NCBI GenBank assembly: GCA_003216725.1
Contig: QCIL01000003.1
Span: 1 to 64,000 of the forward strand
Direction: 5' to 3'
Source: Prochlorococcus sp. AG-402-L18
GTDB lineage: Bacteria > Cyanobacteriota > Cyanobacteriia > PCC-6307 > Cyanobiaceae
Length of the DNA: 64,000 bases
Shown: one piece after another, positions 31,725 to 47,523 of the stretch
How positions within the stretch are numbered: position 1 is the stretch's first letter
Layout: every line of letters starts with the position of its first letter
The notes under the pieces: model-generated
The model's database searches: none
Told to the model about the DNA's origin: nothing
Seen by the model: only the letters and a program-made list of their open reading frames with translations
Program-made: the position numbers and the translations under genes

Positions 31725-32055
31725 TAAATATCAAGGATTATTTTTTCAAATTAATTTTATAAATATTAGTTTAGTTATTTTTAAAATTTTTGCTATAAAT
31801 TAACTGAGGCCAAACCTCGTAAGCACACTCTACGTTTGCTGCAAGACATAGATTGATTCAATATAGTTGCGAGTCGATTTAATAACCTTTTCAGTAGTTG
31901 GAATTTCTGGAGGGGTTTCTTGTTTAATACCCAATATCGTTTTTTGGATTTGTTATAAAAATAATCAATTTAAGGACTAGGTTTGCAGGTAAATCTAAAG
32001 GCTTCAATAGTAGTAAAGCCAAACCCTGGGTTACATTAAAACCTTTCTCTTCCAT

Positions 32056-33309: not shown

Positions 33310-33723
33310 TTAATTGAAAGGGAAAATATTCTTAGTAGGAGATATAAAAAGTACTTCAAAAACAATTCCAGTCAAAGCAATAGGCAATACCCAAATAGCG
33401 ATAAACCTATGATCAAAAAATCTTAAATTGTCTTCTCCTTTAAAAACACCTTTTAAAGAGGTGTGCAAAGTTTCGGGTCTTTTATAAGAAGGGCCATTTT
33501 TAATTGGAGAATATGGTTTTATAAATGCAGAGGAAGCTGCAAACTTTGCAATTTTTCTAATCAAATAAATAGGTAATACCCAAAGGGCTACATATCTTCC
33601 ACCTAACCACTGTCTAGCATTAGGGAGCGCATATTCTTTAATAGATTTATTCTCTGGCATTCCAGATTCCAAATTCTTGTAGATATTTTCTATTGAGGAT
33701 ACTTTTTGTGATTTATTGATCAT
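33310..33723 (-). CDS. Hypothetical membrane protein with two similar TM segments
   Basis: GGRYVALWVLPIYLIRK and DHRFIAIWVLPIALTG repeated pattern. Confidence 0.55.
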   Translation of the reverse strand: MINKSQKVSSIENIYKNLESGMPENKSIKEYALPNARQWLGGRYVALWVLPIYLIRKIAKFAASSAFIKPYSPIKNGPSYKRPETLHTSLKGVFKGEDNLRFFDHRFIAIWVLPIALTGIVFEVLFISPTKNIFPFN

Positions 33724-33740: not shown

Positions 33741-33850
33741 TTTACCTTAAAATAAAAATATTCCTAACTACTAAAATAACTAAAACGTAGTTAAGAATAT
33801 TTTTGTTGGCTAGGTTCATAAGGACGGAATCAATACCGTTGCAGATTCGC
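33741..33850 (-). ncRNA. Candidate sRNA A
   Basis: Reverse strand GTAGATATTTGGCGAATCTGCAACGGtattgattCCGTCC...GAACCTAGCC then long hairpin AATATTCTTAACTAC/GTAGTTAGGAATATT plus T run; parallels candidate B. Confidence 0.55.
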
Positions 33851-33974
33851 CAAATATCTACATAATATTTATAAATAAAAAACTCTTTTTTAAAAAGTAA
33901 ATAATATACATAACCATGAATAAAATTTAATGACTGGATTTAAATTGAATATTAACTTGAATGTTTCTGACTAT

Positions 33975-34105
33975 TAAAAATTATTTAAACCTCATTTTCT
34001 AAGATTGCGAAAAAGAAAATGAGGTCAAAGGGAGGTTCTCATTATGAACCGCTTTATCAAAGCTTGCGGTTAGTAGATTGCCCTAATATCTACTTATATA
34101 TTTAT
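33975..34105 (-). ncRNA. Candidate sRNA B
   Basis: Reverse strand GTAGATATTAGGGCAATCTACTAACCGCaagctttgataaaGCGGTT...GAGAACCTCCC then hairpin CCTCATTTTCT/AGAAAATGAGG. Confidence 0.55.
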
Positions 34106-34175
34106 ATAATGAAATTTAAAATACAGGAAGCTTAATTTTATACAAATAAGTGTTTAATATTTATATAATTATTGT

Positions 34176-34309: not shown

Positions 34310-34495
34310 TTAATTTTTTGTTAAAGAGATATTTTCTAAAATATAACTTTGTTCTATTGATTCATTTTTAAGAGTCATTTTTTTTTGGAAATTATTATTA
34401 GGAGAATTAAAAGCACCCCATTTTTTTAGCCAAAATAAGGTATAAAAAAATGCAATCAAAAATGGTGCTCCAACAATTAAAAATCTTATATCCAT
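34310..34495 (-). CDS. Small TM protein, N-terminal paralog of 34509-34805
   Basis: MDIRFLIVGAPFLIAFFYTLFWLKKWGAF vs [29 protein letters not shown]. Confidence 0.5.
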   Translation of the reverse strand: MDIRFLIVGAPFLIAFFYTLFWLKKWGAFNSPNNNFQKKMTLKNESIEQSYILENISLTKN

Positions 34496-34508: not shown

Positions 34509-34805
34509 TTAATAACCTTTAAACTGCATTGCCAAAATTGCTCCAAGAAAGAAAACCGTTGGAATACCTAGGGCATTAACAGCTGCGGTTCTTACAGTAA
34601 ATACTGGATAACCTTCTACTGGTCTGCCAGTATCAGGAACTAATGCTGAATCTTCCCATACTTGATAATTTTTGAAAGGAGCTACTCCCTTCTTTGGTAA
34701 TCCTAGTGGCGTTAATCTAAATACATCCCATTTACCTAACCAAAAGACTGTAAATATCCATGAGAATATTATTGGTGTAACAACAAGTACAATCCTGAAA
34801 TCCAT
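34509..34805 (-). CDS. PsbF (cytochrome b559 beta)-like domain fused to an N-terminal TM segment
   Basis: C-term [30 protein letters not shown] resembles PsbF [30 protein letters not shown]. Confidence 0.75.
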
Positions 34806-47277: not shown

Positions 47278-47523
47278 GAAGTTATGCAGTTAATGAGAAT
47301 CCCGTTCCTTATTCTCATGTCATGCGTCCAGAAATATATACAGTATGAACGTTCATAAACGATAACATTACAGAGATATTTATGTGAGAGTAAATATAAC
47401 TAATTTATCTTTATTGTATTTTTTATATATGAAAAGTTTTAACTATTTATTCTTATATTTCAACAATTTATTCTTATTCAAATATAAAGTTTAAGATAAG
47501 CTAGATATTATAGATAAAGAACT

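Follow-up and report, generated by a model that had tools for sequence, protein, structure and literature searches.

A pair of predicted pseudoknot RNAs upstream of a 137-aa membrane-protein gene in Prochlorococcus

The locus at positions 33741–34105 of the window (the whole stretch of 64,000 nucleotides analysed, from Prochlorococcus sp. AG-402-L18) raises the question of whether two look-alike segments of its minus strand, read in a preliminary description as twin structured RNAs, constitute a functional RNA pair and, if so, what they might act on. Few regulators are known in the ocean's most abundant phototroph, much of whose regulation is attributed to RNAs.

Structure and covariation of RNAs A and B

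The two segments form a paralogous pair on the minus strand: RNA A, a stand-alone structured RNA (33985–34093; covariance model R1, 93.7 bits), has its predicted start at 34093 and its 3' end at about 33985, and its paralog RNA B (33750–33861; R2, 84.7 bits), directly upstream of a 137-aa gene, has its predicted start at 33861 and its 3' end at about 33750. The sequences on which the preliminary description relied were all present, and the folding stability of A and B exceeded that of 200/200 shuffles each (z −3.6 and −4.0). From the 5' ends (GTAGATATTAGGGCAATCTAC at 34093 in A, GTAGATATTTGGCGAATCTGC at 33861 in B), both RNAs share one architecture: two hairpins, P1 and P2, precede a long terminator-like hairpin, and the loop of P1 forms a pseudoknot with a strand 3' of P2. 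In A, P2 (AACCGC/GCGGTT) is followed by AATGAGAACCT and the hairpin ACCTCATTTTCT/AGAAAATGAGGT; in B, P2 (ACGG/CCGT) is followed by TATGAACCT and the 18-bp hairpin AAAAATATTCTTAACTAC/GTAGTTAGGAATATTTTT. The P2 and terminator hairpins had thus been recognised from the letters, but the strand that closes P1 (ATCTAC/ATCTGC) and the pseudoknot had been missed; the common motif, given as TATGA(G)AACCT, does occur, but in the exact forms AATGAGAACCT and TATGAACCT.

The pairings were followed through 42 distinct A-type sequences and 52 B variants. P1 of A (34073–34093, with 34093–34088 pairing with 34078–34073) is paired in 94.8% of cells across its 42 variants, with one two-sided change (UA to AU), and its loop holds the 5' pseudoknot strand. 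P2 of A (34047–34071, AACCGC at 34071–34066 with GCGGTT at 34052–34047) shows two-sided changes from CG to UA and from GC to AU around a conserved loop, AGCTTTGATAA. The pseudoknot of A (34029–34084), which joins AGGG of the P1 loop (34084–34081) to CCCT (34032–34029), is paired in 100% of cells, one of its pairs being GC in 33, GU in 3 and AU in 6 of the 42 variants. Four pairs of the A terminator hairpin (33989–34025) carry two-sided changes; its U tail is weak in the window, and the terminator of copy 'a' in genome G499 has a canonical U-rich one. In B, P1 (33841–33861, 33861–33856 with 33846–33841) is paired in 99.7% of cells over 52 variants with one-sided changes only, P2 (33824–33839) changes from GC to CG in three G499-type genomes, and the terminator-like hairpin (33754–33804, arms 33804–33787 and 33771–33754) is paired in 98.8% of cells, three of its pairs showing two-sided changes. 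The B pseudoknot (33806–33853, TTGGC at 33853–33849 with GCCAA at 33810–33806) is paired in 98% of cells, changes from UA to CG in locus L015 and is longer in G499 (UUGGGC/GCCCAA); since MAFFT did not align this divergent copy, B', exactly, B' was counted against the pseudoknot in the B tally.

Over the whole structure, two-sided changes numbered 25 cells in A and 9 in B, compared with 3.3 and 0.6 in shuffled controls. Such changes occur in the terminator as well as in P2 and the pseudoknot, and their count lay above that of 500/500 shuffles, a control that ignores the relatedness of the sequences; sliding the partner strands, which retains relatedness, destroyed the pairing in both A and B. 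The search for covariation in homologs, set beforehand as a check on the pair, therefore left it unrefuted, and the reading of compensatory stem differences as the mark of a functional RNA pair was borne out. Conserved positions are concentrated in P1, the pseudoknot and the preceding strand GAACCU and not in open loops common to A and B, the pattern that a compact tertiary fold would produce; we therefore favour recognition of the folded domain over antisense pairing.

The assertion that no ORF explains the segments also stood. A 25-codon AUG frame in B (peptide MNLANENILNYVLVILVVRNIF...) was rejected as coding, since it differs between variants by 5 synonymous and 102 non-synonymous changes, lacks its start in 8/52 variants and varies evenly over the codon positions (15/15/16). 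RNA A contains just one 5-codon frame in most genomes.

Distribution, promoters and neighbouring genes

Of 61 genomes searched at the DNA level, 17 contained the region and 2 others gave fragments at chance level; all belong to the same genus. Covariance models built on the 5' domains, the second check proposed, recovered A at E values of about 1e-17 and B at about 1e-20 per genome across the genus. RNA A was present in 59/121 genomes of the genus, and the significant matches of B among 398 genomes of the family were confined to the genus. Candidate members outside it, weak R2 matches with E values of 0.001 and above, were rejected: among those inspected, the matches in G146 and G273 fall within a conserved reading frame of 227 aa, and the one in G078 falls in an unrelated GC-rich stretch. 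Neither the B motif nor a relative of the 137-aa protein was found on viral contigs. The window's own genome has a single A (next match at E 2.4) and a single B, and the two RNAs occurred together in 76/76 loci examined. Three divergent genomes (G499, G483 and G486) carry three tandem units, labelled a, b and B', in which the pseudoknot strands of each unit match each other (GGGA/UCCC, UGGGA/UCCCA and UUGGGC/GCCCAA). In G430 (loci L090 and L098) the whole module of long PsbF gene, 61-aa ORF, A, B and 137-aa gene occurs twice, the copies lying far apart in one chromosome.

Comparison with known Yfr RNAs, also proposed at the outset, gave no match to the Yfr families in Rfam: the twin region had zero matches to Rfam 15 at the gathering threshold and, at E values up to 5, just chance matches to mir-4477. 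No description of the family was found in the literature consulted, which did not extend to the supplementary candidate tables of PMC7368042. The best reading of these data is that A and B represent a putative new family of self-terminated pseudoknot RNAs. Two other RNAs were annotated in the window: the sRNA Yfr13 (31806–31903, plus strand; RF02364, 95.4 bits), 1.8 kb from the twins, whose location varies between strains (PMC2518516), and a glutamine-II riboswitch (47293–47354, minus strand; RF01704, 37.7 bits) upstream of a short ORF. Together with a long-form PsbF gene, these mark the window as marine picocyanobacterial DNA of the high-light Prochlorococcus type.

Both RNAs are predicted to start at GUAGA, 6–7 nt 3' of a TATAAA −10 box. 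In the aligned upstream regions the predicted promoter of A (34101–34144, minus strand) comprises the element TGTATAAAATTAAGCTT (34144–34128) and a −10 box at 34106–34101, and that of B (33868–33910, minus strand) the element TGTATATTATTTACTT (33910–33895) and a −10 box at 33873–33868. A TGTA(t/a)A...CTT element, at −51 in A or −49 in B, together with a TATAAA-like box precedes nearly all copies of A and B; copies a and b have variant −10 boxes, and a decayed A in G482 has none. This common layout suggests separate, co-regulated transcription units that descended by duplication. A wider regulon sharing the promoter element was considered and rejected, the matches in the own genome being B and one other site (the spacing of the pattern excludes A).

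Upstream of A on the minus strand lies the gene for a long-form cytochrome b559 beta subunit, PsbF (34509–34805; NF002720, 206.5 bits, E 4.6e-62), which confirmed the PsbF-like neighbour named from the letters, and between them a 61-aa ORF (34310–34495; NF002717, E 2.8e-6) that is a partial paralog of the N-terminus of the long PsbF. By eye, the long form apparently has Asn (AVNALG) in place of the haem-ligand His (AVH) of the canonical subunit. The adjacency of the pair to a PsbF-like operon was thus correctly noted. The long PsbF gene is usually in the same cluster as the RNAs and the 137-aa gene, but the RNAs track the 137-aa gene better: G434, G482, G486 and G499 have the RNAs and the 137-aa gene and lack the long PsbF gene, and in G434 the neighbourhood around them is different.

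The 137-aa gene (33310–33723, minus strand) encodes what looks like a two-TM protein and follows B in every genome that has the RNAs. The protein had zero matches in Pfam, NCBIfam or PDB, and its predicted structure has a pLDDT of 50, too low to be of use. RNA A and the 137-aa gene were both present in 58/121 genomes of the genus and both absent from 60/121, with three exceptions: in both G013 and G032 the locus apparently reaches a contig end, and in G481 the protein match is a fragment of 27 residues. In every variant measured, 30–90 nt separate the B terminator stem from the 137-aa start, and a conserved promoter was not visible in this gap; wherever the gene is in view, a structured, terminator-bearing B precedes it as a leader would, the decayed copy in G482 being the one exception. 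Because of this spacing, B is probably also the leader of the 137-aa gene, beyond being a free sRNA, and since the RNAs are always paired and always just upstream of this gene, they probably help to control it. In G482 (locus L089) A has lost the 5' strand of P1 and B its terminator hairpin, the 137-aa gene being intact, which makes this strain a natural regulatory mutant. A gene for a 195-aa Crp-type regulator lies between A and B in G008 (L017 1-1900), with a palindrome (GATAATGAGAAT...ATTCTCATTATC) upstream of the regulator; despite the genes between the two RNAs, B still adjoins the 137-aa gene. Low-light genera (L122–L141) have longer relatives of the 137-aa protein, and a search for the RNAs at these homologs found none; the gene as such can thus do without the RNAs, which are an addition confined to one genus. 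In genus g80 a PsbF-type gene is directly upstream of the 137-aa relative; the locus has a plain terminator but lacks the RNAs.

Possible modes of action

The reading that we prefer, to which we give about an even chance of being correct, is that A and B are duplicated, self-terminating pseudoknot RNAs, of which one, A, stands alone and the other, B, doubles as leader of the 137-aa gene. The duplication would have taken in an entire transcription unit, from the activator-type element and the −10 box through the pseudoknot domain to the terminator, each copy being transcribed from its own promoter with the first G of P1 as its start. The fold of each RNA would be a compact H-type pseudoknot in which a hairpin is inserted, and transcription would mostly stop at the RNA's own terminator, giving a product of about 105–112 nt. 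As the 5' leader of the membrane-protein gene, B would allow its expression by read-through of the B terminator. A protein or small molecule probably recognises the compact domain and not an exposed antisense seed. RNA A heads no gene and may work alongside B, for instance by competing with it for one factor. Comparison shows the structure, its covariation, the obligate pairing of A with B, the linkage to the 137-aa gene and the common promoter layout; that the RNAs are transcribed and terminated, that B is read through, what is recognised and what A does are inferred. Direct antisense pairing of A with B (GGUUCAUAA/UUAUGAACC) was set aside as a weak lead: 9/9 pairs form in 61/76 loci and only 6–7 in 8 loci, so that it is not firmly kept.

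A different view, which we consider possible but rather unlikely, is that A and B are ordinary trans-acting sibling sRNAs of the Yfr type that base-pair with distant mRNAs, and that B lies close to the 137-aa gene only incidentally. Sibling sRNAs are homologous, have promoters and terminators of their own and are expressed as discrete short transcripts; by sequence, A and B are homologous and have predicted promoters and terminators. Moreover, the sibling pair Yfr11/Yfr16 is known in MED4 (PMC2518516), and the 11-nt P2 loop of A, AGCUUUGAUAA, is conserved and also found in copy b. However, B lacks this loop sequence, and among the sites complementary to the A loop in four genomes none was conserved at a start codon, for which reason an antisense seed in the loop was rejected. 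Obligate linkage to one gene would likewise be unexpected for a trans regulator. Somewhat more doubtful is the idea of tandem riboswitches, in which each pseudoknot would be a metabolite aptamer that sets termination, giving two complete switches in series before the 137-aa gene. It would account for the succession of a small pseudoknot with an invariant core, a terminator and a gene, and both tandem glnA switches in the same bacteria and the frequency of pseudoknot aptamers (PMC2864571, PMC6698751) speak for it. Yet pseudoknot and terminator do not compete here, A precedes a promoter and B instead of a gene, and in G008 the two RNAs are separated by other genes. A conserved anti-terminator was sought in both RNAs (in B by inspection only) and none was found: the candidate alternative pairing AAUGAG/CUCAUU of A is invariant in 36 A-type variants and weakened or lost in copies a (5/6 pairs) and b (3/6). 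This tends to speak against a classical switch, and it weighs on the preferred reading too, as do the low-light relatives that lack the RNAs and the weak U tail of the A terminator.

Two further explanations carry very little weight. That the hairpins are conserved only as DNA or terminator elements, with 5' domains devoid of RNA function, is highly improbable in view of the covariation in P2 and the pseudoknot, outside the terminators. A type III toxin–antitoxin locus, in which pseudoknot antitoxin RNAs in tandem precede the gene of a toxin, is suggested by the succession of two or three tandem pseudoknot RNAs, a terminator and one gene; already disfavoured, it can scarcely be credited, as the 137-aa protein is two-TM-like with no match to a toxin family in Pfam or NCBIfam, and each RNA has a predicted promoter of its own, unlike processed repeats.

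A bolder reading, possible but rather unlikely, is that high-light Prochlorococcus has a pseudoknot regulator of a new class, in which a stand-alone copy (A) and a leader copy (B) of one aptamer-like RNA are transcribed together and, by competing for a common factor, set the expression of a photosystem-linked membrane protein. The comparison adds a covariation-supported RNA family that always occurs as a pair or triple, is missing from roughly half of the genus as sampled and is linked to a single accessory gene module that includes an additional cytochrome b559 subunit. With strains that have or lack the RNAs, a lineage with three units and a natural terminator-loss strain, their role is directly testable.

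Comparison with known systems

In the preQ1-II riboswitch, an H-type pseudoknot, a 5' hairpin offers its loop for pairing with a strand further downstream, beyond a second, inserted hairpin. A and B have this same topology; unlike preQ1-II, their downstream strand abuts a terminator and not an RBS, queuosine genes are absent nearby, and Rfam gives no match. Type III toxin–antitoxin systems of the ToxIN kind also place tandem pseudoknot RNAs before one gene, whereas the protein downstream of A and B has no match of the ToxN, CptN or TenpN type and the two RNAs have independent predicted promoters. The glutamine-II (downstream-peptide) riboswitch, RF01704, is a pseudoknot aptamer of about 60 nt from the same bacteria, with one example in the window; its 5' end pairs with the loop of a 3' hairpin (PMC6698751), whereas A and B have the reverse topology, with a 5' hairpin loop paired to a 3' strand, and its covariance model matched elsewhere in the window and not at A or B. 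The STAXI motif, which lies near DNA-handling genes and to which A and B have no Rfam match, resembles them in being a pseudoknot unit in two or three tandem repeats (PMC2864571). Like the Yfr sRNAs (Yfr8–Yfr21 and Yfr28), some of which form similar pairs (Yfr11/Yfr16) and are linked to genomic islands (PMC2518516, PMC7368042), A and B are short, structured intergenic RNAs of one clade; they differ from them in having no Rfam match, in their tandem arrangement with a common promoter layout, in their pseudoknots and in being tied to one gene.
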